From Rhodospirillales bacterium (lineage in GTDB: Bacteria; Pseudomonadota; Alphaproteobacteria; UBA8366; JADFVY01), in NCBI GenBank assembly GCA_020356105.1, contig CP070634.1, positions 540,697 through 604,696 of the forward strand: a stretch of 64,000 nt of DNA. Direction: 5' to 3'. Made by a program: the position numbers and the translations under genes. The notes under the pieces are model-generated. The model was not told where the DNA came from, made no database searches, and saw nothing but the letters and a program-made list of their open reading frames with translations. Shown here in pieces: positions 19,442 to 42,416 of this stretch (positions are counted from its first letter, which is position 1; each line of letters starts with the position of its first letter).

Positions 19442-19714
19442 CGCCCGGCTCCCCGCTGTTCGAACGACGTCGCAAAGGCTTAACATCGCACCCTTGCACA
19501 GGGTATCGAATTTCGGGACATCTGTGTAGCCGATCGCAAACCGTGACCGGGCCGTCGCGCTGGGATCTGCTTCCGAGGCACCCCTTGTGCCGCATTGGGA
19601 TGCCGGGCTGCCGATTGTGGTGCGCTCGGGCTTTCGTTGATTTATCATGTGTTACAGGTTTGATCGGGCATGCCTCGCATGGCGCAGATTGCCCGGAACC
19701 AGGGGGAGCAGACA

Positions 19715-24285: not shown

Positions 24286-24780
24286 TCACGCGACCGCTCG
24301 ATACAGGTAGTATCGCTCCGGCGGCACGCCGTCCGGAGCCTCGATCTCGCGCCAGGACTCCGGGGCCGGCAGCGGCTGGTCGCTCAGAACGATGCCGCCA
24401 ACGCGCACCATCTCGGCGAGCAAGGGGCCGACCTTCGAAGCGAGGCGTGCATTGCGCGCGGCATCGCCGGTGCCGATATCGTTGTGCACCAGGGCAATGG
24501 TGCGCCCGAGCAATCGCTGCGCCCGCTGCAGCGTGGCCTCGACGTCGCCCATGAAGAGATGGTCCCGATCCGGGATGCAGTCGGGATGGGCGTTGATCTG
24601 TCTCTCGAAGACGAAGATCTCCCGATCCGGCAGCCGTTCGCGCAGATGATCGTAGGTGCGGCCGTTGCCCAGGCCCAGCTCGAGGATCGGGCCCGGCAGA
24701 CCGCCGATCTCCGCCGCCGCCCAGTCGATGCAGGCGCGCTGGGCCTGCAGGCGACGGATCACGCTGTCCAGCCGGCTCAT
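24286..24780 (-). CDS. Small class I SAM-dependent methyltransferase
   Basis: A 164-residue Rossmann-fold protein with the SAM-binding motif ILELGLGNGRTYDHL (E34, G36, G38, G40) and a following acidic strand FVFERQINAHP. It then has GRTIALVHNDIGTGD and a conserved end, GGIVLSDQPLPAP. The size suits a compact methyltransferase with little added substrate domain; the acceptor cannot be told. It lies 52 bases after the cyclic-nucleotide-binding gene in a leftward group led by the ABC-like protein, so a role in the same process is likely. The start ATG 24780 has a weak GGGCGG site. Confidence 0.75.
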   Translation of the reverse strand: MSRLDSVIRRLQAQRACIDWAAAEIGGLPGPILELGLGNGRTYDHLRERLPDREIFVFERQINAHPDCIPDRDHLFMGDVEATLQRAQRLLGRTIALVHNDIGTGDAARNARLASKVGPLLAEMVRVGGIVLSDQPLPAPESWREIEAPDGVPPERYYLYRAVA

Positions 24781-24832: not shown

Positions 24833-25300
24833 TCATCTGCTGCGATCTTCGTCGACAGCCATGGCCATCTCGCGCAGCTGTGCATTGGTCTGCAACAGGC
24901 GGTTCGCGAGTTCGCGCATGATCTCCTTGGCGATTTCCGGAAACTCGCCGATCAGCCGGAAGAACAGCTCCTTTCTGATCCGCAGCGCTACGAGATCTGA
25001 TTTCGCGGTCACGGTCGCGGTCCGCGGCACGTCACAGAGAATCGCGATCTCGCCGACGAAATCATGATTGCCGAGCGTCGCCACGGACAGCGGGCCCTTC
25101 TCCGTGTCGATCGTAACGTCGGCCCGACCGGTTATGATCAGAAATGCCGCATCGCCCGGGTCCCCCTGGCGAAACAGCACTTCGCCATCCGCGTAGGACA
25201 GGCGCTCGCTAGTGAATGCAAGCAGCTTCAGTTTCGCCGGTTCGATATTGGCGAACATCGGTATCTTGCGGAGCAGTTCGAATTCTTGCTGCAGGCTCAT
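24833..25300 (-). CDS. Cyclic nucleotide-binding domain protein (single domain)
   Basis: A 155-residue protein made almost wholly of one cNMP-binding domain. The phosphate-binding cassette FVGEIAILCDVPRTATV has the key glutamate E84 and arginine R93, so nucleotide binding looks intact. There is no DNA-binding helix-turn-helix after it, only a C-terminal helix, so it is not a Crp-type regulator. It probably modulates a partner. It lies 30 bases downstream of the ABC-like gene, suggesting that it gates or senses for that membrane protein. AAGGA precedes ATG 25300. An adenylate cyclase is encoded at 40968-42323 in the same window. Confidence 0.87.
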   Translation of the reverse strand: MSLQQEFELLRKIPMFANIEPAKLKLLAFTSERLSYADGEVLFRQGDPGDAAFLIITGRADVTIDTEKGPLSVATLGNHDFVGEIAILCDVPRTATVTAKSDLVALRIRKELFFRLIGEFPEIAKEIMRELANRLLQTNAQLREMAMAVDEDRSR

Positions 25301-25330: not shown

Positions 25331-28006
25331 TCAGAGATCATGGAGAAAGTTGCGATAGGTGCCGCCTTCGCGGTCGGCCAGCTCCTCCGGCGAACCGTCC
25401 TCGGCGATACGGCCCTCATCCATAACGACGACACGCGGAAATTTATTCGCCAACGTAGCATTATTGAGCACCCAGACGACCGTGCGGCCGCCGCATTCCG
25501 CCAGTACCCTGTTGACGACGGTGTTCTGCATCCGCGCATCGAAGCCGGCGGCGGCCTCGTTGACCAGCAGGATCCGGGGTCGCTTCAGCAGGCAGCGCGC
25601 GATGCCGATCTTCTGACGCTGTACCGGCGACAGCCGTGAGCCGCCCGGCCCCGTCTGGCTGCGCAGGCCTGCGGACATCACGACGTCGCGCAGGCCGAGC
25701 CCCTCGAGGACCTCCGCGATAAGAACGCCGACGCGCTGCGCCGCGTTGGCCTGGCCGTAGTCGATCTTGCCGAACAGGATATTGTCCTGGATTGTCGCGC
25801 CGGGATTGTACGCTTCGGGATCGAAGAACGCGATCCTGCCGGTGAGCTCGTCCGGCAGGCCCTCGGCAAAGGCGCGGCGTGCCTCGAGCAGACGTGACTG
25901 CAAGGCCTTGTCGATCAGGTCGAGACGGTGGCGTGCCGGGATCAGCTTGAAGGGGAGCGCAATCAGGCGATCCCGGTCGGTCTCGCCGAGCGCGTCAAGG
26001 CCGCGCGCCGCCCGTCCGAGAATCGCGTGGAACTCCGGCAAATCCTCGGCCGAGATGAAGCTGAACCGTTCGAAGAATTCGTGACCCGGCGGCAAGTCCG
26101 CGAACAGCTCGACCATCGTCTGGGCGACGTGCCGGCCGATCTTGAGGAACTCGTCGGTGAGCGCGACGCGCTCCAGAATGCGTCGAACATACCAGTTGGC
26201 GGCGATGTGCTGTTCGCTCAGTGTCTCGTCGAGCGGTACGCCGAATATCAGGTTCTCCGCGACCGAGGCGTTGAGGTTATAGCGCCCCGCATCGAATGGT
26301 TCGACCAAGCGCGAGACCTCCGGATCGGCCAGCCGGTCGCGGACCGCGGCGCGCGCCTCGAGGATCTTGCGCGCAACGTCCGGCTTCTCTTCCGGTTCGA
26401 TCGTGCCGCGCAGGCCGCGGGCATAGATATCGTCGTCGAGATCGACCGCCCGCAATACGTCGAGCATTCGCGCCTCCAGTTCGTCCGGTCCGGCGACGTC
26501 GGCAGAGGCGTAGTCGATCCAGTCCGCGTTGAAATCCAGCGTCGTGTTGCCGGCTTTTTCCGCTTCATGGAGTTCCTGCTCGTACCTGGCCTGCGCGTCC
26601 GCCTCGTACCCGGCCGCCCTCGTCGGCTCGTGCTTCAGTGCGAAGGCCAGCGCGTCGGCCAGGGAGCCCGCCTGGACGTATACCGACGGCCCGACATAGG
26701 CGATGCGTCGGCCGGTCACTGCGCGGGGCAGTCTCTTGATGTCGCGATCGTCCAGCATGACCGACCCGCTCGTCGGCGTCAGCAGGCCGGCGATTGCCAT
26801 CACGAGCTCGCCCTTGCCGCTGTTCGCCGTACCCACCACGGCCACATGATCGCCGGCGCCGATGTCGAGCGTGACACCGTCAAGCGCGCGCACGCCATCG
26901 TCGTCGACCAGACCGACGTTCTGCAGCACCACCGGGGCATCCGGCGCGATGTCGCCGGCCTCGTCGAGTTCCGACAGGAGCGTCTCCTCGTCCAGGATGT
27001 GCGGCGGATCGAACTGTTCGATCACCTGGCCGTACTTGATCCGGACATCTTCCTTCTGCTGATACCAGGTCAGCATTTCCTTCCAGGGTCCGGCGAGGTC
27101 CTTGTAGGCCGCGAGGACGGCAACCAGCGCACCGAAACTGAGCTCGCCCTCGATGACGAGCCAGCCACCGATCGAAAAGAAGAAGAACGGTGTGAGCTTG
27201 TCGATGAAGTTATTCAGGAACTTCATGAAGAACTTGATGCGATAGATATCGAACCGGATCCAGTAGATGATGCCAAGGCGCGACGCGAACCGGGACAGCT
27301 CGTGTCGCGCGGAGTCATGGGCGCGCAGCTCGGTGATCCCCGAGACCGTCTCCCCAATGTGATCGGACAGCCGACGCACGTTTTGCACGCGCTGCTTGCC
27401 AAGCTCGTTGACCCGGCGCTGGAGCTTCGGAATCACATAGATCTGCAGTGGATAGAGGGCGATCGCCGCGGTTCCCAATATCGGGTCCTGGACCATGATG
27501 AAACCGAGGATGATCAGCAATTGTCCGCCCTGGAACATCGGGTCGGCGAACGCGGTGCCGATGAAGCCGCCCAGCGGCTCGACCTCGGCCGTGATCATCG
27601 GGATCAACTCGCCCTGGCTGACCTTGCGAAATTGCGGCAGCGGGAACCGCAGGATCCTCTGGTAGAGCTGATAGCGCAGCCGCCGCAGAAGCCGCTCGCC
27701 GAGACGGCCCTTGAAGACGTTGATGTAATATTTCAGGACGCCGTTCACCAGCACGAGGAACAGGTATACGAAACTGAGCCCGATCAGGAATTCGATCTGG
27801 CTGGTGCCGACGCTGAGCATGGGTGAACCGAACAGCACGACGTCGAACGGCGGTCCGGACGTCGCACCGATCGCCTGGTTCACGATCACCTTGGGCATTT
27901 CGAGCGCGAGGTAGAGGAAGGGATAGGACAGGACGATCACGGCCAGCAGCCAGATCTGCTGCGCCTTGCTGTATCGCAGTATGAAGCCGAAGATGCTCGG
28001 TTCCAC
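25331..28006 (-). CDS. ABC exporter-like protein with degenerate, inserted ATPase domain
   Basis: An 891-residue half-transporter layout: six-helix exporter membrane domain (~10-330) then a nucleotide-binding domain. The ATPase half is abnormal. Walker A (from residue 392) reads GTANSGKG, with G where S/T is needed. About 390 residues of charged helical sequence separate it from the signature, against roughly 100 normally. The signature is LSPVQ (792-796) instead of LSGGQ; Walker B is ILLVNE (812-817), with N for the usual D; the switch histidine is N (848-849). GTG 28006 is chosen because the upstream in-frame stretch is not protein-like; ATG 28144 is the alternative. It is followed closely by a cNMP-binding protein. 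A regulated or non-hydrolysing transporter is possible. Confidence 0.82.
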   Translation of the reverse strand: MEPSIFGFILRYSKAQQIWLLAVIVLSYPFLYLALEMPKVIVNQAIGATSGPPFDVVLFGSPMLSVGTSQIEFLIGLSFVYLFLVLVNGVLKYYINVFKGRLGERLLRRLRYQLYQRILRFPLPQFRKVSQGELIPMITAEVEPLGGFIGTAFADPMFQGGQLLIILGFIMVQDPILGTAAIALYPLQIYVIPKLQRRVNELGKQRVQNVRRLSDHIGETVSGITELRAHDSARHELSRFASRLGIIYWIRFDIYRIKFFMKFLNNFIDKLTPFFFFSIGGWLVIEGELSFGALVAVLAAYKDLAGPWKEMLTWYQQKEDVRIKYGQVIEQFDPPHILDEETLLSELDEAGDIAPDAPVVLQNVGLVDDDGVRALDGVTLDIGAGDHVAVVGTANSGKGELVMAIAGLLTPTSGSVMLDDRDIKRLPRAVTGRRIAYVGPSVYVQAGSLADALAFALKHEPTRAAGYEADAQARYEQELHEAEKAGNTTLDFNADWIDYASADVAGPDELEARMLDVLRAVDLDDDIYARGLRGTIEPEEKPDVARKILEARAAVRDRLADPEVSRLVEPFDAGRYNLNASVAENLIFGVPLDETLSEQHIAANWYVRRILERVALTDEFLKIGRHVAQTMVELFADLPPGHEFFERFSFISAEDLPEFHAILGRAARGLDALGETDRDRLIALPFKLIPARHRLDLIDKALQSRLLEARRAFAEGLPDELTGRIAFFDPEAYNPGATIQDNILFGKIDYGQANAAQRVGVLIAEVLEGLGLRDVVMSAGLRSQTGPGGSRLSPVQRQKIGIARCLLKRPRILLVNEAAAGFDARMQNTVVNRVLAECGGRTVVWVLNNATLANKFPRVVVMDEGRIAEDGSPEELADREGGTYRNFLHDL

Positions 28007-28203
28007 GGTGCTCGACCGCCGCCACTCTGTCTCAAAATCCCGCCCGCCGGCGGGGCAAACCTTACCGCAGCTTATACGGCCCGAAACCCTCCTTGGAAAA
28101 AAATTGAACGAGGGTGCTTCCGGCAACCGCCCCGGCCGTGTCATAGTCGGCCCGCAAAACCGGAAGCCGACGGTTCGCCGACGCGGCAGGAGGTAGCGAT
28201 ACG

Positions 28204-29451
28204 ATGGGCATACACGACCGAGAGGCCCGCGTCCTGATCTACAGCCATGACACGTTCGGGCTGGGCCACCTCAGGCGCTGCCGCGCCATTGCGCATTCCA
28301 TGGTGGGGGAGCGTCGCGCCATGTCGGTCCTGATCCTCTCGGGATCGCCGATCATCGGCAATTTCGATTTCCGCGCGCGAGTCGATTTCGTCCGGGTGCC
28401 GGGCGTGATCAAGCTTCGCAACGGCGACTATACCTCGCTTGCCCTCCATATCGATATCGAGGAGACGCTGGCAATCCGGGCCTCGATCGTTCGCCACACG
28501 GCCGAGGCGTTCGATCCCGACCTGTTCATCGTCGACAAGGAACCGCTTGGCCTGCGGGGAGAGGTGGCCGGCACGCTCGATCTGCTGAAGGCGCGCGGCG
28601 TGCCGTTGGTGCTGGGGTTGCGGGATGTGCTGGACGATCCGCTGACCCTGCACAAGGAATGGGCGCGCAAGAAGGTTATTCCCGCGCTCAAGGACTACTT
28701 CGACGAGATCTGGGTCTACGGCATGCCGGAGATCTGCGATCCGCTCGCCGGAATTCGCCTGCCAGCCCGCGTTCGCAACAAGGTGCACTACACCGGCTAC
28801 CTTCGGCGGGAATTGCCCACTGCGCCGGCCGCGCACACGGCACTGTCGAAGATCTCCGCGCCCTACATACTGGTGACGCCTGGCGGCGGCGGCGACGGCC
28901 AGCAGATGGTCGACTGGGTGTTGCGTGCCTATGAGTCCTGTTCCGACCTGCCGTACCCGGCGCTGATCGTCCTTGGCCCGTTCATGGCTTCCGAGGACCA
29001 GTCCGAATTCCTGGCCCGCTGCGAGCGCCTGGAAACCGTCGAGGCGATCACCTTCGACGCCCGCATCGAAGGCCTGCTCGACCAGGCGGTCGGCGTGGTG
29101 GCGATGGGCGGATACAATACGTTCTGCGAGATTCTTTCCTTCGACAAACGCGCGCTTATCGTACCGCGCATGGAACCGCGCATGGAGCAGTATATCCGCG
29201 CGAGCCGGGCCTGGGACCTCGGCCTTGCGGGCATGCTGCCGAATGACGGCGTGCGCACCGCCGCCGACATGGCGAACGCCCTGCGGCGGCTCGGCAGCCG
29301 GCCGCTGCCCTCGACGCGCATGCCCGACGGGATGCTGGACGGCCTCGATAATGTCAATCGCCTGGCCGACCGGCTGCTGCACCGCAACGGCCGGCGCCCG
29401 GGGTCCATCGATCTGGCGCCGCCGCTGGCTGTCGTGGGGGCGGAGCAGTAG
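28204..29451 (+). CDS. MurG-like glycosyltransferase
   Basis: A 415-residue GT-B-fold glycosyltransferase-like protein. The N-terminus has YSHDTFGLGHLRRCRAIA, the MurG/Gtf-type glycine loop, and a second Rossmann half begins near YILVTPGGGGDG. The end has the donor-site pattern VVAMGGYNTFCEILSF followed by RMEPRMEQ. It resembles the gene at 32441-33598 in layout (both have GHxxR and GYNT). It is the first gene of a tightly coupled rightward operon; the AGGAGG site lies 10 bases upstream of ATG 28204. A divergent 197-base gap separates it from the ABC-like gene. Donor and acceptor are unknown. Confidence 0.8.
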   Translation: MGIHDREARVLIYSHDTFGLGHLRRCRAIAHSMVGERRAMSVLILSGSPIIGNFDFRARVDFVRVPGVIKLRNGDYTSLALHIDIEETLAIRASIVRHTAEAFDPDLFIVDKEPLGLRGEVAGTLDLLKARGVPLVLGLRDVLDDPLTLHKEWARKKVIPALKDYFDEIWVYGMPEICDPLAGIRLPARVRNKVHYTGYLRRELPTAPAAHTALSKISAPYILVTPGGGGDGQQMVDWVLRAYESCSDLPYPALIVLGPFMASEDQSEFLARCERLETVEAITFDARIEGLLDQAVGVVAMGGYNTFCEILSFDKRALIVPRMEPRMEQYIRASRAWDLGLAGMLPNDGVRTAADMANALRRLGSRPLPSTRMPDGMLDGLDNVNRLADRLLHRNGRRPGSIDLAPPLAVVGAEQ

Positions 29452-29455
29452 CACC

Positions 29456-30709
29456 GTGCCCGCGGTTGCGGTCATTCTGAAGGGTTATCCGCGTCTCTCG
29501 GAAACCTTCATTGCGCAGGAAATAAGAGAGCTGGAGCGTCTTGGCGCGGACCTTCGCATCATATCGCTGCGCCATCCGACCGACCGCCACCGCCATCCGG
29601 TGCATCGCGAGATCGCCGCTCCGGTACGTTACCTGCCGGAATACCTCCATCATGAACCCCTGCGTGTCCTGCGGGGGCTCGCTGCGGTGCGCCGAAAGGC
29701 GGGCTTCGCAAAGGCTCTGTCGGTCTGGTTGCGCGATCTGCGGCGTGATCCGACACGCAACCGGATCCGTCGGTTCGGGCAGGCCTGCGTGCTCGCCGCC
29801 GAGCTGGAGCCCGACACCACCCATTTGCACGCTCATTTCCTGCATACCCCGGCCTCCGTCGCCCGCTACGCGGCCGCGATATGCGGCCTGCCGTGGAGCT
29901 GTTCGGCGCACGCAAAGGACATCTGGACCACATCGGACTGGGAAATCGCCGAGAAGCTGGCGTCACTCGACTGGCTGGTGACCTGCACCGCCGCCGGTCG
30001 GGACCGGCTGCAGGATCTGGCACGGGATCCGGACCGCGTCGCGCTTGTCTATCACGGGGTCGACCTCGCGCGTTTTCCGCCGGGCGGCGACGACCGGCCG
30101 GCGCGCGACGGCAACCTGGTCTCGGATCCGGTGACCATCCTGTCGGTCGGCCGCATGGTCGAGAAGAAGGGATATGACGACCTGCTCGATGCCCTGGCCG
30201 GCTTGCCGCCGGCCATGTCCTGGCGATTGCGGCATATTGGCGGCGGCAAGCTCGGCGATCGGTTGCGGGCCCGGGCCGCCCGTCTCGGTATCGAAGACCG
30301 GATCTCATGGCTTGGCCCTCAACCTCAGGAAACCGTGCTCGACGAAATGCGCGCGGCCGATCTGTTCGTTCTGGCCAGCCGAGTCGCGTCCGATGGCGAC
30401 CGGGACGGGTTGCCCAACGTGTTGATGGAGGCCCAGAGCCAGGGGCTGGCGGTGCTGGCGACCCGGGTTTCTGCGATACCGGAGTTGATCATCGACCAGT
30501 CGACGGGCTTTCTGGTGCGACCGGGTGATCCGGACGCGCTCGCGCAGGCCCTTGCCCGACTGATCGCCGATCCGGAATTGCGTCGACGGCTCGGGCGTGC
30601 CGGAGCGAAGCGTGTTCGGGACTCGTTCTCACTTGCCGCCAATATCGGAGAGATTGCCCGGCGGTTCGGCATGACCCGCGAAGAGCGGTGGGCGGCCGCA
30701 TGCGAATAG
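29456..30709 (+). CDS. Glycosyltransferase family 4 protein (colanic-acid type)
   Basis: A 417-residue GT4-like enzyme. It begins VAVILKGYPRLSETFIAQEI, typical of exopolysaccharide glycosyltransferases of the colanic acid/WcaL kind. It has HLHAHFLHTPASVA in the acceptor half and SVGRMVEKKGYDDLL in the donor half. The donor-site motif is DGLPNVLMEAQSQG with AIPELI, the EX7E motif having D in place of the first E, as is common in this subgroup. It starts at GTG 29456, 4 bases after the previous stop, with GGAG upstream. It probably acts in the cytoplasm, building a lipid-linked or free glycan. Confidence 0.87.
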   Translation: MPAVAVILKGYPRLSETFIAQEIRELERLGADLRIISLRHPTDRHRHPVHREIAAPVRYLPEYLHHEPLRVLRGLAAVRRKAGFAKALSVWLRDLRRDPTRNRIRRFGQACVLAAELEPDTTHLHAHFLHTPASVARYAAAICGLPWSCSAHAKDIWTTSDWEIAEKLASLDWLVTCTAAGRDRLQDLARDPDRVALVYHGVDLARFPPGGDDRPARDGNLVSDPVTILSVGRMVEKKGYDDLLDALAGLPPAMSWRLRHIGGGKLGDRLRARAARLGIEDRISWLGPQPQETVLDEMRAADLFVLASRVASDGDRDGLPNVLMEAQSQGLAVLATRVSAIPELIIDQSTGFLVRPGDPDALAQALARLIADPELRRRLGRAGAKRVRDSFSLAANIGEIARRFGMTREERWAAACE

Positions 30710-31848
30710 CCTTCTATGCGCCGCTGAAGGCTCCCGACCATCCGGTGCCCTCCGGCGATCGGCGGGTGGCCCGGCTGTTCATGGAGGCGCTGCGCTGCGG
30801 TGGGCACGATGTCGAGCTGGCATCTCGTTTTCGCAGCTACGACGGGTCCGGAGAGGCGATACGACAAGCCCGCCTGCAGCGGCTCGGTGTTCGCCTGGCG
30901 TCCCGTTATCTCGAGCGGTGCCGAGGCACGGCGCCTGACCTCTGGTTCACCTATCACCTTTATCACAAGGCACCGGACTGGCTTGGGCCAACTGTCGCGG
31001 CTCGGCTCGGCATTCCCTATGTCCTGGCCGAGGCGAGTTTCGCCCCGAAACAAGCGGCCGGACCGTGGGCAGCCGGACACGCGGCGGTCGCCGCCGCCAT
31101 TCGCGAGGCGGAGCGCGTCATTTGCATCAACCGCGATGATGCGGCCTGCCTGCGGCCACTGCTTCAGAGCGCGCGGCGTCTTAACGAAATCAATCCGTTT
31201 CTCGATATCGAACCGGCTCGCGACGCCCGAAATCGTCGGACCGCACATCGGAGGACGCTTGCGGCGCGCTTGGGTATCGAGCCGGGCGTGCCGTGGATTG
31301 CGGTGGTCGCGATGATGCGGCAGGGCGATAAACTGGCATCGTACCGAATGCTCGGCGATGCCCTCGACCGCATCGGTGACCGTCGCTGGGTGCTGCTGGT
31401 CGCCGGCGACGGTCCGGCCAGGCCGGAGGTCGCCAAGGCGCTGAATTTCGGCGATCGGGTGCGGTTCCTGGGGGTGCTCGACGAACCGGCGGTCGACCAG
31501 TTGAACGCGGCGGCGGATCTCGGCGCCTGGCCCGCCGTCAACGAGGCCTTCGGCATGGCCGCTCTGGAGGCGCAAGCCGCCGGCCTGCCGCTGGTTGTCG
31601 GCGATCGTCCCGGGGTCCGGCAGATCGTGCAGGCCGGCGAGACGGCGCTGCTCGCGGGTCCCGAAGATCCCGCGGCGTTCGCGCGGGCGCTGGCATCGCT
31701 GCTGGACGATCCGATACGCCGCAGGGAAATGTCCGCTGCGGCGTTGGCACGTGTCGCGCGCGAGCACAGCCTGTCGGTTGCGGCGCATCGGCTCGACGCG
31801 GTTGTTGTTGCCGCGGTTGCGGACAGGCTGCGGGCGAGGGCGTCGTGA
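30700..31848 (+). CDS. Glycosyltransferase family 4 protein
   Basis: A 382-residue GT4-like protein with the full donor-site motif EAFGMAALE (EX7E) followed by AAGLPLVVGDRPGVRQIV. Its N-terminal half (MRIAFYAPLKAPDHPVPSGDRRVARL) is acceptor-side. ATG 30700 overlaps the preceding gene by 10 bases, and the end overlaps the phosphatase gene by 4. It is the third glycosyltransferase of the operon; together with the other three it implies a glycan of several sugars. Confidence 0.85.
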   Translation: MRIAFYAPLKAPDHPVPSGDRRVARLFMEALRCGGHDVELASRFRSYDGSGEAIRQARLQRLGVRLASRYLERCRGTAPDLWFTYHLYHKAPDWLGPTVAARLGIPYVLAEASFAPKQAAGPWAAGHAAVAAAIREAERVICINRDDAACLRPLLQSARRLNEINPFLDIEPARDARNRRTAHRRTLAARLGIEPGVPWIAVVAMMRQGDKLASYRMLGDALDRIGDRRWVLLVAGDGPARPEVAKALNFGDRVRFLGVLDEPAVDQLNAAADLGAWPAVNEAFGMAALEAQAAGLPLVVGDRPGVRQIVQAGETALLAGPEDPAAFARALASLLDDPIRRREMSAAALARVAREHSLSVAAHRLDAVVVAAVADRLRARAS

Positions 31849-32444
31849 CCTTGCTCGCGGTTGTCCGGCACGGCCCCACGGAGTGGAATACACGCGGCCG
31901 CGTCCAGGGACGCACGGATGTTCCGCTGGATGCCACGGGGATTGCGGAAGTCCGGCGATGGAGCCTGCCGCCCGACGTCGATGGGTTTTCCTGGGTCTCG
32001 AGCCCGCTCACCCGCACCATGGAGACCGCGCGAATTCTGCGCGGGGAAGAGGTCAGGCGCGACGCGCGGCTGGTCGAGATGGACTGGGCAGGCTGGGAGG
32101 GAGAAACGCTCGATGCGCTGCGCGCGGAGCTGGGCGACTTGATGCGCGCCTGGGAGGCCAAGGGGCTCGATTTCAAGGCGCCCGGCGGCGAAAGTCCACG
32201 AGAGCTACAGGCACGGATTGCCCCGTTCCTGGTCGAACTCGCGGGCCGCGCCGAGGATACGGTGGCGGTCACACACAAGGGCGTCATCCGGGCGCTGTAC
32301 GCGCTGGCGACCGGGTGGGATATGACCGGCAAGCCGCCCCAGAAACTCCGTGACTCCTGCCTGCACCTGTTCCAGCTCGCGGCCGATGGCACGCCGGCTC
32401 CAAAACGCTTGAATATACCACTCGCACCGGGCGCGGGCGAATGA
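31845..32444 (+). CDS. Histidine phosphatase family protein
   Basis: A 199-residue phosphoglycerate-mutase-like phosphatase. It has the catalytic RHG at residues 8-10 (VVRHGPTEWN, H9), the acid region VEMDWAGWEGET, and the second histidine H144 in VTHKGVIRAL. It could remove phosphate from a sugar phosphate or a lipid-linked intermediate of the surrounding glycosyltransferases, but substrate specificity cannot be read. It starts at GTG 31845 inside the previous stop (GTGA overlap) and ends with an ATGA overlap, so it is translationally coupled on both sides. Confidence 0.9.
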   Translation: MTLLAVVRHGPTEWNTRGRVQGRTDVPLDATGIAEVRRWSLPPDVDGFSWVSSPLTRTMETARILRGEEVRRDARLVEMDWAGWEGETLDALRAELGDLMRAWEAKGLDFKAPGGESPRELQARIAPFLVELAGRAEDTVAVTHKGVIRALYALATGWDMTGKPPQKLRDSCLHLFQLAADGTPAPKRLNIPLAPGAGE

Positions 32445-33598
32445 AGAGCGCCACGGTTCTAGTCTATGTGCAGCACCTCCTCGGCATCGGACACCAGATG
32501 CGCGCGGCGGCGATCGTGCGTGCGATGCGGGCGCAGGGGCTGAACGTAACCTGTGTCTCGGGGGGCGAACCCGCCGGCATGCCCGACCTTGGCGGCGCCC
32601 GTCTGATCCAGCTTCCACCGCTGCGCGCGGCAGACTCGAGTTTCAGGCGTTTGGTCGACGAGATGGGCCGGGAGATCGACGCCGAAGGGCGCGCGCGTCG
32701 CCGCGATGCGCTGTTATCGGCGTTCAGGGACGTCCGGCCCGGGGTGTTACTGATCGAGAGCTTTCCGTTCGCGCGCTGGCAGTTCCGCTTCGAACTGCTG
32801 CCGCTGCTGCAGGCAGCACGCGAGAAGGGCGTGCGGGTGGCAGCCTCCGTGCGCGACATCCTGGTTGCCAAGGACGATCCGACTCGCGTGGACGCGATCG
32901 TCGATATCCTGCGCGAGTCGTTCGATGCGGTGCTGGTGCATGGCGATCCGCGGCTGGTGTCGCTCGACGCCACCTTCGGCGCCGCCGACAGGATTGCCGA
33001 CCTGATTCACTACACCGGATATGTCGCGCCGCCACCGCCCGACATTGCCGCCGACGGCCCCGGTGCCGGCGAAGTGGTGGTCGCGGCCGGCGGCGGTGCC
33101 GTTGGCGGGACGCTGTTGCGAACAGCATTGGCGGCGCGCCCGTTGACCAAATTCGCTTCGTCCCGGTGGCGACTGATCACGGGTCCGAATTTGCCGCCGG
33201 CAGAGCGACAGGCCCTGGCAGCGCCGCGCGGCGTGACGATCGACACCATGCGCGATGACTATCGGGAAATCCTCGGGCGTGCCGCGCTCTCTGTCAGCCA
33301 GGCCGGATACAACACCGTCATGGATATTCTGGTTGCCGGTGCGCGCGCCGTGCTTGTGCCCTTCAGCACCGACACGGAAACCGAGCAGAGATTGCGCGCC
33401 CGCCTCCTGGCGGCGCGCGGGCGTGTGCAGGTGATTTCCGAATCGGGCCTGTCGCCGTCGGCGCTGGCCCAGGCAATCGACACCGCCGCCGAGATGCCGC
33501 GGCCCGATCCACCGGATTTCAGCCTCGACGGCGCAAATGGAACCGCGCGGCTCGTTGCCGCCCTGTTGACGCGCACACCCGCGCGCAACGGTCTCTAG
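32441..33598 (+). CDS. MurG-like glycosyltransferase (second)
   Basis: A 385-residue GT-B-fold protein similar in plan to the gene at 28204. It starts VLVYVQHLLGIGHQMRAAAI, has an IHYTGYV segment in the middle and VVAAGGGAVGG at the start of the donor half, then SVSQAGYNTVMDILVAG near the end. The shared GHxxR, H(Y)TGY and GYNT landmarks suggest that the two MurG-like genes are old paralogues. It overlaps the phosphatase gene by 4 bases and is followed after 33 bases by the deacetylase-like gene. Confidence 0.8.
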   Translation: MKSATVLVYVQHLLGIGHQMRAAAIVRAMRAQGLNVTCVSGGEPAGMPDLGGARLIQLPPLRAADSSFRRLVDEMGREIDAEGRARRRDALLSAFRDVRPGVLLIESFPFARWQFRFELLPLLQAAREKGVRVAASVRDILVAKDDPTRVDAIVDILRESFDAVLVHGDPRLVSLDATFGAADRIADLIHYTGYVAPPPPDIAADGPGAGEVVVAAGGGAVGGTLLRTALAARPLTKFASSRWRLITGPNLPPAERQALAAPRGVTIDTMRDDYREILGRAALSVSQAGYNTVMDILVAGARAVLVPFSTDTETEQRLRARLLAARGRVQVISESGLSPSALAQAIDTAAEMPRPDPPDFSLDGANGTARLVAALLTRTPARNGL

Positions 33599-33631: not shown

Positions 33632-34450
33632 ATGATGGACAGGGCGCAGACGGTTGGAGCGAGCGATGTGGCGGACGACCTCGCAAGGTCGCCGCGGTCC
33701 GACCCTTGGGCCATGCTGGGCGCGGAACTCGATGCCTGGCAGGCGGTCGGACGACGGGCGACGTTCTGGTGGCGCGACGACGATGCGACGCGTCCTGGGA
33801 TCAAATTGTCACGGCTGCTTGATCTTGCCGGCACGATACCGTTGACGCTCGCGGTGATCCCGGCGCGGGCCCGGCCCGAGCTCGATAACACCCTGGCTGC
33901 GCATCGTGAAGCCGGGGGGAGACTCTCGGTCGTGCAGCACGGGTTTGACCATCGCAACCACGCGCCGATGACGGAGAAGAAAGCGGAATACGGCCCGCAC
34001 AGGCCTCTTGCGACGATGATCGCCGAACTGGCCGACGGCTGCCGAATTCTCGAGTCACTCTTTGGCGAACGGTTCCGGCCGATCCTGACTCCCCCGTGGA
34101 ACCGGATCGCGCCTGCTCTCGTGCCGCGGCTCGGCGAGGCCGGCCTCGCCGGACTTTCGGTCTTCGGCGACCGCTTTCTGGACAGCGGGCCGAACGTCGT
34201 CAATACCCATATCGATATCATCGACTGGCGGGGAAACCGCGGCTTCGCGGGAGATGAAGCCGTGCTTGGCGCCGCTGTCGGCAGTCTTCGCCTGCGCCGA
34301 AAAGAAGTGATCGAGTCCGGCCCGCCGACCGGACTGCTGACCCATCATGTAGCGCATGATGAGGCCTCATGGCAGTTCCTTGAGCGCTTTGTTGCGGTAG
34401 TCGCCGACCACCCCGCCGGTCTCTGGATCGACGGAACGACGATCGCGTGA
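33632..34450 (+). CDS. Polysaccharide deacetylase-like protein
   Basis: A 272-residue protein with NodB-fold metal-site pieces: an acidic motif FWWRDDD (D49-D51), the histidine motif HGFDHRNH (H103, H107, H110) and TPPWNRI. These resemble carbohydrate deacetylases, in a variant wording seen in a little-studied branch. There is no signal peptide, so action on a cytoplasmic intermediate is more likely than on secreted polymer. The start ATG 33632 has no good ribosome site, the only weak junction in this operon. It overlaps the next gene by 4 bases. Confidence 0.75.
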   Translation: MMDRAQTVGASDVADDLARSPRSDPWAMLGAELDAWQAVGRRATFWWRDDDATRPGIKLSRLLDLAGTIPLTLAVIPARARPELDNTLAAHREAGGRLSVVQHGFDHRNHAPMTEKKAEYGPHRPLATMIAELADGCRILESLFGERFRPILTPPWNRIAPALVPRLGEAGLAGLSVFGDRFLDSGPNVVNTHIDIIDWRGNRGFAGDEAVLGAAVGSLRLRRKEVIESGPPTGLLTHHVAHDEASWQFLERFVAVVADHPAGLWIDGTTIA

Positions 34451-34965
34451 GCGCCGCAGCGATGAGCGTGCACCTTTATCCGACACGGGATCTATCAGCC
34501 GATTATGTGCGCGCCGCGATAGGGCTTTCGGTTACCGCGGGTCCCGCACTCTTGCTGCAGCCGGCACCGGCGGTCGCGGCTGTCCTGGGTGGTCTCGCGG
34601 TGCTGTTCGCCGCCTTTGCACTGCGCACCGGCATGCGCCAACTGACCGCAATAGAGGTGACGGAAGACGGAATCGCAGCGCAGGGCCCGCTTTCTCGCCG
34701 CATATCCCGGGATGAGGTCACGCGGGTCAGGCTCGACTATTTTTCCTTCGGACGCGAGCGTGCCAAGGGCTGGATGCAGCTCAAGATTAGCCACGGGTAT
34801 CGGCACATTCGGGTCGACTCTACGATCGAGGATTTCGAGACGGTCGCCCAGGCGGCCGCGGAAATAGCGCGCCGCAACGAGCTGGCGTTGTCCGATACGA
34901 CGGTTGCGAACTTTCGCGCGATGGGGCTGGCGGTCGATGACCCCGATCGGGAGATCGCGGCGTGA
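34447..34965 (+). CDS. Small membrane protein of unknown function
   Basis: A 172-residue protein with a hydrophobic hairpin (about residues 22-60: AIGLSVTAGPALLLQP, then VAAVLGGLAVLFAAFAL). A cytoplasmic domain rich in beta-forming residues follows, TAIEVTEDGIAAQGPLSRRIS, reminiscent of bacterial PH-like domains. I do not recognise a named family. It is coupled by 4-base overlaps to the deacetylase-like gene before it (GTG start at 34447) and to the ABC ATPase gene after it. It therefore bridges the glycan genes and the importer genes. Confidence 0.7.
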   Translation: MSAAAMSVHLYPTRDLSADYVRAAIGLSVTAGPALLLQPAPAVAAVLGGLAVLFAAFALRTGMRQLTAIEVTEDGIAAQGPLSRRISRDEVTRVRLDYFSFGRERAKGWMQLKISHGYRHIRVDSTIEDFETVAQAAAEIARRNELALSDTTVANFRAMGLAVDDPDREIAA

Positions 34966-36866
34966 GGGACGATTTGCTGACAGTGCGTGATCTCCGGGTC
35001 GCCTTTGATCTGCCGGAAGGCCGAGTCGAGGCGGTCCGGGGCGTTTCGTTCTCGGTTCGACCGGGTTCCACCGTAGCGCTTGTCGGTGAATCCGGGTCCG
35101 GCAAGACCGTCGTGTCGCAGGCGATCATGGGTATTTTGCCCAAGGCGGGTCGTGTTACGGCGGGTTCCATCATGTTTCGTGATCCGGAGCGCCCCGGACC
35201 GCGCGACATTCTGAAGCTCGATCCGAACGGCGACGAGATGCGATCGATTCGCGGCGGACGGATCTCGATCATTTTCCAGGAGCCGATGACATCCCTGTCG
35301 CCGCTGCACACGATCGGCGACCAGGTGTCCGAGGCCTTGCGACTGCACCGGCCCTGCGGCGCCGCGGAAGCGCTCGAGCTGACCCGCGATATGCTCCGAT
35401 TGGTGGGCTTCCCCGATCCCGCGCGCGCGATCAAGACCTACCCGTTCGAGCTGTCCGGCGGCCTGCGGCAACGGGCGATGATCGCCATGGCGCTGATCTG
35501 CCATCCGGCTCTGCTGATCGCGGACGAGCCGACGACCGCCCTCGACGTGACCATCCAGGCGCAGATTCTCAAGCAGATCGTCGACCTGCAGAGCGAGCTC
35601 GGGATGGCGATCCTGATCATCACCCACGATCTCGGCGTGGTCGCCAACGTGGCCGAGGACGTGGTCGTCATGTATCACGGGGAAGTCATGGAGTCCGGCA
35701 GCCTCGAGGACATCTTTCGCGCCCCCGCCCATCCGTATCTCAAGGCCCTGTTTCGAGCGGTGCCGCGATTCAACATGGAGTCGGGAGAACGCCTTGTGCC
35801 GATCCGCGAGGTGGCCCCGCCCAGCGGCGCGATCATCGAGCATCACATTGCCGACGCGGCGCGTCGCGCCGGCGATGCCAAACGCCCGCTCCTGTCCGTG
35901 CAAGCGATCTCGAAGACGTTTACGATCCGCAAGGAGTCCTGGGTGGGCACCTCGGAGGCCGGGCGCATCGAGGCGGTCGCCGACGTCAGCTTCGATATCC
36001 GTCAGGGCGAGTGTCTCGGCCTCGTCGGAGAGAGCGGCTGTGGCAAGACGACGCTCAGCAAGATCATAATGCGTGCGCTGACCGCCGATTCCGGCCAGGT
36101 CACGTATGACGGGCCCGACGGTCCGATCGACGTGCTGGCGCTCGAGGGGGCCGAACTGACGGCGTTTCGCCCCAACATCCAGTTCATCTTCCAGGATCCC
36201 TTCGGATCGCTCAACCCGCGCATGCGTGTCGCCGACATCATCGCCGAACCGCTTGTGATCCACGGGGTCGGCGATGTCGGCCAGCGCCGCGAGATGGTCG
36301 AGGAGCTGCTCCGTCTGGTCGGGCTCGATATCCGTCATGCCAGGCGCTACCCGCACAGCTTTTCCGGTGGCCAGCGCCAGCGGATCGGCATCGCACGGGC
36401 CCTGGCTCTGCGTCCCAGCCTGCTGATCTGTGACGAGCCCGTCTCGGCGCTCGACGTGTCCATCCAGGCGCAGATCCTTAACCTTCTGAAGGATCTCCAG
36501 TCGGCGTTGGGATTGACGTATCTTTTCATCTCCCACAATCTGGCCGTCGTCGACTACATCGCCGACCGCATCGCCGTTATGTGCCGCGGGCGTCTGGTCG
36601 AGGTGGCGCCGCGGGAGGTCCTGTTCCGTAATCCGGTCCACCCGTACACACAGGGCCTGTTGGCGGCCGTTCCGGAACCCAGCCTGGATCATCCGCTCCA
36701 TTTCGAACGGCTGATGGAGGAGCGCGCCTCGGACCCGGCGGCATGGCCGGCCCCGTTCACCGACGATGCGACGAAGTCGCCGATCCTGCGCGCCCTCGGC
36801 GGCAATCACTTCGTTCGCGCGGATGCGCGCGCCGACTTGCCGAGCATCCAGAAGGAGACTGCATGA
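34962..36866 (+). CDS. Oligopeptide-type ABC importer, fused double ATPase
   Basis: A 634-residue protein with two complete ATPase domains, equivalent to DppD and DppF joined in one chain. The Walker A motifs are GESGSGKT (42-49) and GESGCGKT (356-363). The signatures are LSGGLRQR and FSGGQRQR, and the Walker B motifs [11 protein letters not shown] and [11 protein letters not shown]. Each half has the oligopeptide-family tail ([26 protein letters not shown]). This is the YejF/GsiA layout, powering import by the two permeases downstream. It starts at GTG 34962 overlapping the previous gene by 4 bases and ends overlapping the binding-protein gene by 4. Confidence 0.93.
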
Positions 36867-38755
36867 TGCGATCGTTGCTGCTTTTTGTTGCAGTGGTTCT
36901 CGCCTTGCCGACGGCCGCTATCGCGGCAGGTCCCGGCGAGCCGCCGTACCTGGCGGAGAAGGTCGCGGCCGGCCTCTTGCCGGCGCTTGCCGAGCGCCTG
37001 CCCGATCCGCCGCTCGTCGTCGAGATGGATGGCGAGCGGTCCGTCGGGCGTCATGGCGGCACGCTCAATATCCTGATGGCGCGCTCGAAGGACGTACGTC
37101 AGATGGTCGTGTATGGCTACGCGCGGCTTGTCCGGTACCAGCGCGATTACGAGATTGTCCCCGATATTCTCAGGGACATCGAGATCCAGAATGGCCGCAT
37201 CTTCACCCTGCATCTGCGCGCCGGTCATCGCTGGTCGGACGGTGCGCCGTTCACCACGGAAGACATCCGCTACTGGTGGGAGGACGTCGCGAACAATCCG
37301 CAGCTCTCGCCGACGGGTCCCCGGATCGAGCTGCGCATCGACGGCGAGTTGCCCAAGGTCGAGATCATCGACGAAACCACGGTCCGCTTCACCTGGTCGC
37401 GCCCCAATCCGAAATTCCTGCCGGCGCTGGCCGCCGCCAGCCCGCTCTACATCTATCGGCCGGCCCATTACCTCAAACAGTTCCATGCGCGCTATGCCGA
37501 CGAGGAGAGCCTAAACAAGCTGGCCAGGGAGAAGGGGCAGCGAAACTGGGCGGCGCTCCACAACCGGATGGACAATCTCTACCGGAACGACAATGTCGAC
37601 CTGCCCACCCTGCAACCCTGGGTCAACACGACCCGGCCGCCGGCCGAGCGCTTCATCTTCGTGCGCAATCCTTTCTTCCACCGGGTCGATTCCGAGGGCC
37701 GGCAACTGCCCTACATCGATCAGGTGGTCATGCAGATCGCCAACGGCAAAATCATTCCGGCCAAGACGGGCACCGGAGAGTCGGATCTGCAGGCCCGCTA
37801 CCTGCGGTTCGACAACTACACGTTCTTGAAGCAGAACGAAGAGCGCAACGGTTACAAGACGCTGCTGTGGCGCAACGGAAAAGGCTCGCACATGACCCTT
37901 TTTCCGAATCTCAACGTGCAGGATCCCGTGTGGCGCACCCTGTTCCGCGATGTGCGGTTCCGACGCGCCCTGTCCCTGGCGGTCGACCGCAACGAGGTCA
38001 ACCAGCTGATCTATTTCGGTCTGGCAATCCCCTCTCAGAACACGGTATTGCCGCAGAGCCCGTTGTTCCGGGAGTCGTATCAAAAGGCCTGGACGCAGTT
38101 CGATCTCAAAGAGGCGAACCGTCTGCTCGACGAGCTTGGATTGACCGAGCGGAACCGGGAGGGCGTAAGGCTGCTGCCGGATGGGCGTCCCGCGGAGATC
38201 ATCGTCGAGACCGCGGGCGAAAGTACCGAGCAGACTGACATCCTGTCGCTCGTGCATGACACGTGGCTGAAGGCCGGTATCAAGCTGCACAGCAAGCCCT
38301 CGCAGCGCGACGTCGTCCGCAACCGGATCTATTCAGGCGAAACCATGATGTCGATCTGGGAGGGCCTGGAAAACGGTTTGCCGGCGGCCGGCACCGTTCC
38401 CGAAGAACTCGCGCCGACCCATCAGATCCATTACCAATGGCCGATGTGGGGCCAGTTCATGGAAACCGGTGGACGAAGCGGGGAGCCGGCCGATATGGAG
38501 GAGCCTCGGCGGTTGCTTGCCCTGCTCGACGAATGGTACGCCGCCGATGATCGGACGCGCCGTCGGGAGATCTGGCACAAGATGCTCGAGATCTGGTCGG
38601 ATCAGCTCTTCACGATCGGGATCATCAGCGGGGACATGCAGCCGGTCGTCGTCAACGCGAAGCTGCGCAACGTACCGGAGCAGGGCATGTATACATGGGA
38701 CCCGGGCGCGCATCTCGGCGTCTACAGCCCGGATACCTTCTGGTTCGACACCTAG
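36863..38755 (+). CDS. ABC importer periplasmic binding protein (SBP family 5)
   Basis: A 630-residue extracytoplasmic solute-binding protein of the peptide/oligosaccharide type. A signal peptide (LLLFVAVVLALPTAAIA) precedes the family 5 pattern: GGTLNILM, RAGHRWSDGAPFTTEDIRYWW, DVRFRRALSLAVDRNEVNQL and a C-terminal two-lobe region. It is longer than DppA (~530) and nearer to the YejA-like group, whose members bind peptides or more unusual glycopeptide and opine ligands. ATG 36863 follows AAGGAG and overlaps the ATPase stop (ATGA). The ligand is not predictable. Confidence 0.9.
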   Translation: MMRSLLLFVAVVLALPTAAIAAGPGEPPYLAEKVAAGLLPALAERLPDPPLVVEMDGERSVGRHGGTLNILMARSKDVRQMVVYGYARLVRYQRDYEIVPDILRDIEIQNGRIFTLHLRAGHRWSDGAPFTTEDIRYWWEDVANNPQLSPTGPRIELRIDGELPKVEIIDETTVRFTWSRPNPKFLPALAAASPLYIYRPAHYLKQFHARYADEESLNKLAREKGQRNWAALHNRMDNLYRNDNVDLPTLQPWVNTTRPPAERFIFVRNPFFHRVDSEGRQLPYIDQVVMQIANGKIIPAKTGTGESDLQARYLRFDNYTFLKQNEERNGYKTLLWRNGKGSHMTLFPNLNVQDPVWRTLFRDVRFRRALSLAVDRNEVNQLIYFGLAIPSQNTVLPQSPLFRESYQKAWTQFDLKEANRLLDELGLTERNREGVRLLPDGRPAEIIVETAGESTEQTDILSLVHDTWLKAGIKLHSKPSQRDVVRNRIYSGETMMSIWEGLENGLPAAGTVPEELAPTHQIHYQWPMWGQFMETGGRSGEPADMEEPRRLLALLDEWYAADDRTRRREIWHKMLEIWSDQLFTIGIISGDMQPVVVNAKLRNVPEQGMYTWDPGAHLGVYSPDTFWFDT

Positions 38756-38786
38756 GCGGCGGCCGCAGGACGGGATTTCCAAAGGT

Positions 38787-39785
38787 ATGCTCCGCTATAC
38801 GGTCCACCGGGTGCTGGTCATGATCCCGACGCTGCTCGCGATCAGCGTCATGGTGTTCGTGATCATTCAGCTTCCGCCCGGCGACTATTTCACGACCTAC
38901 CTCAACGAACTGCAGAGCCAGGGAGAAACCGCCAGCGCCGAGCGGATCGAGTTCCTGCGCCAGCAATACGGTTTCGACAAATCGCCGGTCGAGCAGTATT
39001 TCGTGTGGCTCGCCGGCCTGCTGCAGGGCGATTTCGGCTATTCGTTCGAGTTCAACCTTCCGGTGTCCGATGTCGTCGGCGACCGCATCCTGCTGACCTT
39101 CATCGTCTCGTTCGCCACGATCGTCTTTACCTGGATCGTTTCCTTCATCATCGGCACATACTCGGCGGTCTACCAGTACAGCTTCGGCGATTACGCCCTC
39201 TCGCTTCTTGGTTTCATCGGCCTGGCGACCCCGAATTTCCTGCTGGCGCTGGTGCTGCTATGGATTGCCAACGTGTATTTCGGAACCTCGATCGGGGGGC
39301 TCATGGATCCCGAATACCTTGACCAGCCCTGGAGCTGGGGCAAGGCGCTGTCGGTGCTCGAGCATCTGTGGATCCCGGTCGTTGTCATCGGCACGTCCGG
39401 CACCGCCGGCATGATCCGTCGGCTGCGGGCCAACCTGCTCGACGAGCTGCACAAGCAGTACGTGGTGACGGCACGGGCCAAGGGGCTGCATCCCTTCAAG
39501 ATTCTTGTGAAGTATCCGCTTCGCATGGCCCTCAACCCCTTCATCGCGGATATCGGGAATCTGTTGCCGCAGGTCATCTCGGGGGCGGCGATCGTCTCGG
39601 TGGTGCTGTCGTTGCCGACGACGGGCCCGATGCTGCTCAAGGCGCTGCAGAGCCAGGATATGTACCTCGCGGGATCGTTCCTGATGATGCTCGCGATGCT
39701 GACGGTGATCGGCACGCTGATCTCGGATCTCGCATTGGCCGCGCTTGATCCGCGCATTCGCCTGGGAGGCGGGGTGCAGAAATGA
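38787..39785 (+). CDS. ABC importer permease, DppB/YejB type
   Basis: A 332-residue inner-membrane permease with about six helices. The start TVHRVLVMIPTLLAISVMVF is the DppB-type first helix. The ATPase-contact loop lies in GMIRRLRANLLDELHKQYVVTARAKGL. It begins 31 bases after the binding-protein gene with a weak site (AAAGG) and overlaps the second permease by 4 bases. It forms the pore together with the product of 39782-40954. Confidence 0.92.
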   Translation: MLRYTVHRVLVMIPTLLAISVMVFVIIQLPPGDYFTTYLNELQSQGETASAERIEFLRQQYGFDKSPVEQYFVWLAGLLQGDFGYSFEFNLPVSDVVGDRILLTFIVSFATIVFTWIVSFIIGTYSAVYQYSFGDYALSLLGFIGLATPNFLLALVLLWIANVYFGTSIGGLMDPEYLDQPWSWGKALSVLEHLWIPVVVIGTSGTAGMIRRLRANLLDELHKQYVVTARAKGLHPFKILVKYPLRMALNPFIADIGNLLPQVISGAAIVSVVLSLPTTGPMLLKALQSQDMYLAGSFLMMLAMLTVIGTLISDLALAALDPRIRLGGGVQK

Positions 39786-40954
39786 CCGATCGCGCCGACC
39801 TGCCGCACTATGTCAACCGGGCGCCGTTCGATCCGCTCGCCGTTACCGAACTGACGCCCGAGCAGGAGCGCTATTACACGGCCTCGCAGTGGAAACTGAT
39901 GTGGTGGCGCTTTCGCCGGCATCGAATCGCGGTTGTCAGCGGCGCCTTCCTGCTGCTCATGTATCTGTCGATCGCCGGCAGCGAGATCATCGCGCCGTAC
40001 GAACTGCATCACCGCCATACCGATTTTCTCTACGCCCCGCCGCAGCGGATCCACCTGTTTCACGACGGCGCATTCGTCGGACCGTTCGTCTATCCCTTCA
40101 ACAAGACGCTCGACATGGCGAAAATGCGCTGGAACTACACTCCGGATACATCGCGGCCCCAGCCGCTCCGGTTCTTCTGCGTCGGTGACCATGGCGGTGC
40201 GACATACCGGTTCTGGGGGCTGGTCGAGGGACGGTTCCATCTGATCTGTCCGCCGGACGGCGGCCAGGTGTTCCTGTTCGGCACTGATCGGCTCGGACGC
40301 GACATGTTCTCGCGGATCGTTTACGGGGCGCGCATTTCGCTCACCATCGGGTTGATCGGCATCGCCCTCAGCTTCTTCATGGGACTGGTGATCGGCGGAA
40401 TCGCGGGTTACTACGGCGGTCTCGTCGACAGCATCGTGCAGCGAATCATCGAGATTATCCGATCGTTTCCGGAACTGCCGCTGTGGATGGCCTTGTCGGC
40501 GGCGCTGCCGGTAACCTGGAGCCCGATGCTGGTGTATCTCGGGATAACCGTCATCCTCGCGCTGCTCGACTGGCCGGGCCTGGCCCGAGCGGTCCGGTCC
40601 AAGTTCCTCGCGCTGCGCGAGGAGGATTTCTGTACCGCCGCTCAGCTGATGGGGGCCGGGCCGGGCCGTGTCATATTCCGGCACCTGATGCCCAGTTTCA
40701 TGAGCCATCTGATTGCGTCGGCCACGCTGTCGATTCCCTCGATGATACTGGCCGAGACGGCGCTCAGTTTTCTCGGGCTGGGGCTACGGCCACCGATAAC
40801 CAGCTGGGGCGTGCTCTTGAACGAGGCTCAGAACATCAACGTGGTGGCCATTTATCCGTGGCTGATGCTGCCGGTCGTCCCGGTGATCCTGGTCGTGCTC
40901 GCCTTCCAGTTCCTGGGAGACGGATTGCGCGACGCCGCCGACCCCTACAAGTAG
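39782..40954 (+). CDS. ABC importer permease, DppC/YejE type with large loop
   Basis: A 390-residue permease, about 90 residues longer than typical DppC. After the first helix (~50-70) a ~110-residue extracytoplasmic segment is inserted, with aromatic and histidine-rich patches (YAPPQRIHLFHDG). The usual FGTDRLGRDMFSRIVYGARISL-like region then precedes the remaining helices. The ATPase-contact loop is REEDFCTAAQLMGAGPGRVIFRHLMP. The insertion recalls YejE-type permeases and may contact the binding protein. It is the last gene of the operon, with 13 bases to the convergent cyclase gene. Confidence 0.92.
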   Translation: MTDRADLPHYVNRAPFDPLAVTELTPEQERYYTASQWKLMWWRFRRHRIAVVSGAFLLLMYLSIAGSEIIAPYELHHRHTDFLYAPPQRIHLFHDGAFVGPFVYPFNKTLDMAKMRWNYTPDTSRPQPLRFFCVGDHGGATYRFWGLVEGRFHLICPPDGGQVFLFGTDRLGRDMFSRIVYGARISLTIGLIGIALSFFMGLVIGGIAGYYGGLVDSIVQRIIEIIRSFPELPLWMALSAALPVTWSPMLVYLGITVILALLDWPGLARAVRSKFLALREEDFCTAAQLMGAGPGRVIFRHLMPSFMSHLIASATLSIPSMILAETALSFLGLGLRPPITSWGVLLNEAQNINVVAIYPWLMLPVVPVILVVLAFQFLGDGLRDAADPYK

Positions 40955-42323: not shown

Positions 42324-42416
42324 CGATTTCGTCCCCTGCGGATGGTCATGCCGCCGGCCCTGTCTTGATAGTCGCGCGCGATGCGGATCGGGCAATCAAG
42401 ATTTGCGCGCGAACAT

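Follow-up and report, generated by a model that had tools for sequence, protein, structure and literature searches.

A maintained ABC exporter family with degenerate ATPase motifs, linked to a cyclic-nucleotide-binding protein and a glycosyltransferase cluster

The window, that is, the whole 64,000-nucleotide stretch of DNA that was analysed, encodes an ABC exporter-like protein whose gene lies between a gene for a small cNMP-binding protein and a cluster of glycosyltransferase genes. The locus is made up as follows, with counts referring to the loci in which each gene recurs.

24286..24780, minus strand: S-adenosylmethionine methyltransferase (Methyltransf_17), a frequent third gene (40 of 80 loci)
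24833..25300, minus strand: stand-alone cNMP-binding protein of 155 aa, by Pfam, with the ligand motif GEIAILCDVPRTA
25331..28006, minus strand: putative pseudo-ATPase ABC exporter of 891 aa, GTG start, with an in-frame ATG at 28144 as alternative
28204..29451, plus strand: GTa, MJ1255-like/GT28-like glycosyltransferase, the divergent neighbour (56 of 80 loci)
29531..30709, plus strand: GT1, GT4-type glycosyltransferase (Pfam Glycos_transf_1)
30688..31848, plus strand: GT2, GT4-type glycosyltransferase (51 of 80 loci)
31845..32444, plus strand: histidine phosphatase (44 of 80 loci)
32441..33598, plus strand: GTb, GT28-C glycosyltransferase (44 of 80 loci)
33632..34450, plus strand: conserved protein with no Pfam match, putatively polysaccharide-deacetylase-like by eye (35 of 80 loci)
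34962..40954, plus strand: Yej/Opp-type peptide uptake ABC system (ATPase, binding protein, two permeases)
40968..42395, minus strand: membrane class III nucleotidyl cyclase (Pfam Guanylate_cyc), at the far end of the locus

Near the locus, two similar AsmA-like genes stand in tandem (window 15846-18737 and 19670-21805).

The reading frame of the ABC gene, from 28006 to 25331 on the minus strand, contains no stops and encodes 891 residues. Since the GTG at 28006 lines up with the ATG-initiated start of the relatives ('ME(P/K)SIFKFILRYS'), the coordinates of the first-pass annotation were preferred over the in-frame ATG. Pfam recognised both ABC_membrane (PF00664), intact as that annotation had claimed, and ABC_tran (PF00005), split in two pieces, each domain above cut-off. 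Together with the AF2 model (pLDDT 88.2, pTM 0.83) and its Foldseek matches to TmrAB and P-glycoprotein, this gives the architecture of a type IV exporter, a six-helix ABC_membrane domain followed by an ABC NBD. The best PDB matches of the model were TmrAB (5mkk, TM 0.63 by target) and P-glycoprotein, and the CGT transporter 7zo8 was also retrieved. All matches to named NCBIfam families were far under the curated cut-offs, so that assignment to such a family was dropped. A long open frame of 632 aa runs antisense to the gene (window 25928-27826) and is probably a high-G+C artefact. Within the protein, the following elements were located.

26987..28006, minus strand: membrane domain (aa 1-340), Pfam ABC_membrane, the best-conserved large region (mean pairwise identity 0.56)
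26807..26833, minus strand: degenerate Walker A, GTANSGKGE (aa 392-400), Lys retained, the Ser/Thr following it gone
26312..26704, minus strand: M1, first Q-loop/helical module (aa 435-565), from profile comparison and the AF2 model
25841..26305, minus strand: M2, second and extra module (aa 568-722), with 'YNLNASVAENLIFG' and an RHR motif
25559..25834, minus strand: M3, third module (aa 725-816), in the canonical position ahead of Walker B, with 'YNPGATIQDNILFG'
25613..25633, minus strand: degenerate signature, LSPVQRQ (aa 792-798; RLSPVQRQK is aa 791-799)
25553..25573, minus strand: degenerate Walker B, ILLVNEA (aa 812-818), Asp replaced by Asn, Glu retained
25457..25477, minus strand: degenerate H-loop, VWVLNNA (aa 844-850), His replaced by Asn

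The ATPase site had been described as damaged in the first-pass annotation (GKG in Walker A, N for D in Walker B, LSPVQ as signature, N in the H-loop), and all four substitutions were confirmed in the translated frame. The motif set of a functional ATPase (GxxxxGK[ST], LSGGQ, DE, His) is therefore absent from the window protein, which retains the Walker A Lys398, the catalytic Glu817 and the D-loop Asp823. Three other ABC exporters in the same genome carry GxxxxGK[ST], LSGGQ, DEA and HR. The distance from Walker A to the signature, put at about 390 residues, was measured as 395 (Lys398 to Ser793); it has a median of 396 (391-405) across the family and is 99-104 in the three canonical exporters.

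The same degeneracy recurs among the relatives. A strong match, mostly full length, was found in 44 of 60 related genomes, and at least 432 relatives were confirmed in GTDB genomes, mainly in Alphaproteobacteria (Azospirillum, Nisaea, Thalassobaculum, Tistrella, Sneathiella, Reyranella, Inquilinus) and in some beta- and gammaproteobacterial MAGs. In an alignment of 57 rows, the Walker A Lys is kept in 38, the following Ser/Thr in 11, the Q-loop Gln in 11, the Walker B Asp in 8, the Glu in 39, the H-loop His in 15 and the D-loop Asp in 56. When 41 further rows were joined to this fixed alignment, individual states being less certain in the most divergent rows, relatives were again substituted at the same sites, and the complete canonical set occurred in none of the 57 and none of the 98 aligned homologues. 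The Walker A lysine is present in 53 of these 98 and absent from 45, and in 96 chains the signature departs from an exact SGGQ and at least one of Walker A, Walker B and H-loop is damaged as well. L002, the closest relative, shows the pattern of the window protein; the Sinorhizobium meliloti homologue reads GGTSGGGE at Walker A and FNQP at Walker B. Mean pairwise identity is 0.25 over the nine catalytic columns, compared with 0.40 for the NBD as a whole, and reaches 1.0 over the 98 rows at N585, N742, W496 and R710 in the modules and at E133 in the membrane domain.

One member, L094 (7001-9637), is almost canonical (GDGNSGKT, LSGAQ, VLDEA, VHR), and some members of the family may thus hydrolyse ATP. 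It was the best candidate for a canonical, ancestor-like member, but it is nested in the tree, which suggests that each catalytic site changed repeatedly. Indeed, 9-17 changes were counted at each catalytic site on a quick tree whose root was not inferred, a number that fits repeated loss. Compared with a 77% identical full-length orthologue, dN/dS was 0.157 overall, 0.119 in the membrane domain and 0.157 in the insert, which indicates that the protein is maintained. Judged from these comparisons, the family is widespread and actively maintained, not decaying. On sequence grounds, the loss of motifs and the selection on the gene are well supported, as is the catalytic deadness of the family, with the counterpoint that the window copy retains the catalytic Glu and the D-loop Asp. 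The earlier proposal that the protein does not hydrolyse ATP is strengthened by a degeneracy that is family-wide and under purifying selection.

The unusual spacing can be traced to a duplication. Profile-profile comparison related M2 to M3 (E=1.5e-13), M1 to M2 (1.3e-9) and M1 to M3 (9e-8), all column-shuffled controls giving E>0.06, and the M1-M2 match extends into a signature-helix-like RILEAR helix. Moreover, M1 and M3 both align to one stretch of L144, a canonical exporter of the same genome (472-494 and 473-569), and the AF2 model shows a strand-helix-strand-helices unit in every module. Because of the profile matches, the shared L144 alignment and the modelled repeats, we interpret the spacer as a tandem expansion of the Q-loop/helical-subdomain segment. 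By homology, residues 435-816 are three related modules, and the ~300 extra residues are two additional Q-loop/helical-subdomain/signature-helix copies in tandem. The first-pass annotation, which had suggested predicting the structure of the inserted segment, had missed this duplication. The insert alone matched no fold in the PDB (best E 0.62); an unrelated inserted domain is excluded by the profile comparison, which shows duplicated modules. The module elements 'N..A[ST]V.EN[IL]LFG' are conserved far better than the catalytic sites, and the RHR motif of M2 is invariant across 26 relatives and near-invariant more widely. In ABC NBDs, the Q-loop/helical-subdomain segment normally touches the coupling helices of the membrane domain.

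The gene for the cNMP-binding protein begins 30 bp downstream of the ABC gene and adjoins it in 73 of 80 GTDB loci, and 69 of the 73 adjacent proteins keep the Gly-Glu...Arg ligand motif. The cNMP domain is fused to the ABC C-terminus in L021, L071, L110 and Ruegeria, and, by alignment, other relatives of the f4 family appear to have the same C-terminal fusion. No cNMP-like gene was seen on the contig examined for L074, L077, L090, L091, L065 and L078, which are mostly gammaproteobacterial. The database name, and the annotation of the S. meliloti copy, is Crp/Fnr; a transcription regulator of that type would carry a C-terminal helix-turn-helix domain, but the 155-aa protein had cNMP-type matches only, with no DNA-binding Pfam domain. 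The cyclase gene lies 12.6-13.0 kb from the ABC gene in all 12 genomes with both on one contig, the fused f4 group excepted; in that group, where the sensor is fused, the cyclase and ABC genes are unlinked. The linkage of the cNMP-binding protein and the cyclase to the ABC gene is thus well supported on genomic grounds. Adjacency, fusions, the retained ligand motif and the syntenic cyclase all point to control by the neighbouring cNMP-binding protein, which had been offered earlier as an alternative to a non-hydrolysing protein; the two proposals appear compatible with each other and are not exclusive. In L071 (7001-10618), the ABC-like protein and its cNMP domain are continued by a GGDEF domain, which hints at a link with c-di-GMP. 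The fused ABC-cNMP gene of Ruegeria (L189 4603-7710) is followed by a gene for a CPBP intramembrane protease and not by a glycan cluster.

On the other side of the ABC gene, the glycosyltransferase cluster is conserved as far as S. meliloti and R. phaseoli, and the linkage with glycan biosynthesis is well supported. Both S. meliloti pSymB and R. phaseoli preserve the order GTa-GT1-GTb-ABC-cNMP, with similarly annotated binding-protein and permease genes upstream of the glycosyltransferase genes. The S. meliloti counterparts are 50% (GTa), 58% (GT1) and, in strain Rm41, 43% (GTb) identical, and the family member lies at 840-845 kb of pSymB, where an ABC ATPase and a Crp/Fnr regulator are annotated. 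From this neighbourhood, we infer a role of the ABC protein in glycan metabolism, a context that had escaped the first-pass annotation, whose interpretation was partly supported.

Relatives of the membrane domain also occur without an NBD.

Membrane-domain-only relatives, 382-440 aa: L145 3910-5094; L146 4289-5611; L147 3897-5045; L148 3595-4899; L151 8004-9308; L152 8004-9203
Second, more distant NBD-less set, 321-400 aa: L183 2862-3866; L184 3107-4069; L185 3048-4247; L186 3071-4111; L187 3008-4102

Proteins of the first set end right after the sixth helix and bear an additional N-terminal hydrophobic segment. Within the set, identity is 46-57% over most of the length; with the membrane domain of the window protein it is 38-46%. 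On Phaeobacter and Thalassospira plasmids, their genes stand between copper oxidase/CopB/azurin and cytochrome c genes, in copper-resistance operons. The second set is about 30% identical and its host genomes mostly also encode the full-length protein; none of the members inspected had a recognisable ABC ATPase encoded next to it. These genes show that such membrane domains are kept even when their own chain carries no motor, although one may be encoded elsewhere.

Taken together, we give about an even chance to the protein being a pseudo-ATPase ABC exporter, independent of hydrolysis and controlled by a cyclic nucleotide, which would be part of a glycan export or assembly locus. In a homodimer both composite ATP sites would be broken, so that ATP hydrolysis would not drive the protein. 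The former motor domain might then serve as a structural and signalling platform, enlarged by the two extra Q-loop/helical-subdomain copies. The small cNMP-binding subunit, a protein of its own in the window and part of the exporter chain in other lineages, would bind a cyclic nucleotide, for which the linked class III cyclase is a plausible source. Once bound to its ligand, the subunit would switch the membrane domain through the NBD platform. The membrane domain would most likely move or gate the product of the adjacent glycosyltransferase cluster. The absence of hydrolysis, the ligand, the gating, the substrate and the energy source are what we infer from the genes. A broader proposal, to which we would give somewhat less than an even chance, is that of an ABC lineage in which a signalling nucleotide has taken the place of ATP: the NBD would be a dead, triplicated scaffold, a CRP-like subunit fed by the co-encoded cyclase would gate the membrane domain so that a surface glycan is released or flipped, and related membrane domains would have shed the NBD entirely and work in copper-resistance operons.

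ATP might instead stay at the degenerate sites and stabilise the NBD dimer as in heterodimeric exporters, so that the protein would be an ATP-binding, non-hydrolysing switch. Stable ATP binding at degenerate sites has been described (reviewed in PMC7756269), and Lys398, Glu817 and Asp823 are there in the window copy, the lysine being shared by just over half of the homologues (53/98). Nevertheless, the other 45 lack it, the S. meliloti homologue reads GGTSGGGE, and the catalytic columns are the least conserved and are not conserved in a new form, unlike degenerate sites under pressure. We regard such a switch as rather unlikely. Of the claim that the protein binds but does not hydrolyse ATP, non-hydrolysis holds up and binding as a family trait does not, whereas binding without hydrolysis is possible, on motif content, for members that keep the lysine, the window protein included.

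A slow but real ATPase that tolerates unusual motifs appears improbable. The Glu and the D-loop Asp of the window protein and the nearly canonical L094 would suit it, but the Walker B Asp, the Walker A Ser/Thr, the H-loop His and the signature Gly-Gly are lost together, the same pattern is found in L002, and 45 of 98 members have no Walker A Lys. It is also unlikely that the protein pairs with a canonical ABC half-transporter supplying one working ATP site, although degenerate sites are common among heterodimeric exporters (PMC7756269) and three canonical exporters are encoded in the same genome. Indeed, a consensus site would need either an intact signature or an intact Walker A/B/H set in this chain, and neither half is kept in 96 of 98; moreover, no canonical exporter was a recurrent neighbour within 7 kb in 80 loci, and NBD-less relatives exist. 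A single decaying gene or an assembly error, which the many catalytic substitutions within one protein might evoke, has a negligible probability and is excluded by the stop-free frame, the 77% identical full-length orthologue, the dN/dS of 0.157 and the relatives substituted at the same sites.

An ATP-driven motor defines the ABC exporters and, to our knowledge, in those described with a degenerate site each dimer still has one working site. The window protein shares its membrane domain and overall fold with type IV exporters (ABCB/MsbA/TmrAB fold), whereas its family has lost the catalytic motifs and gained ~300 residues, two further Q-loop/helical modules. MRP1, CFTR, TAP1/2 and BmrCD have likewise lost Walker B, signature and H-loop residues in a maintained protein (PMC7756269), but they keep one consensus site, while here both halves are degenerate in the same chain (96/98). 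HetC, a peptidase-type ABC exporter, depends on its ATPase residue and, in vivo, on an N-terminal cNMP-binding domain; this sensor domain, which is related to the one described here, binds ppGpp (PMC10986499). The likeness is that a CRP-like sensor domain is physically attached to an ABC exporter, whereas the present family has a degenerate ATPase, lacks a peptidase domain and carries its sensor at the C-terminus or as a separate protein.

Searches of a set of openly licensed papers found no description of this ABC family. If true, a conserved family with both sites degenerate, a duplicated helical module and a cyclic-nucleotide subunit would test the function of the membrane domain without ATP hydrolysis, and would add a bacterial cyclic-nucleotide route that involves no transcription factor. 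As S. meliloti, a genetically tractable species, carries a family member on its pSymB, direct testing is possible. MsbA2 (SMb21191) of the same species is similar in being an ABC exporter, a proposed polysaccharide exporter, in a ChvI-regulated operon with glycosyltransferases. Identity with it is excluded by the pSymB map: the msbA2 operon lies near 938 kb and the family's member at 840-845 kb, so that the two are different genes.
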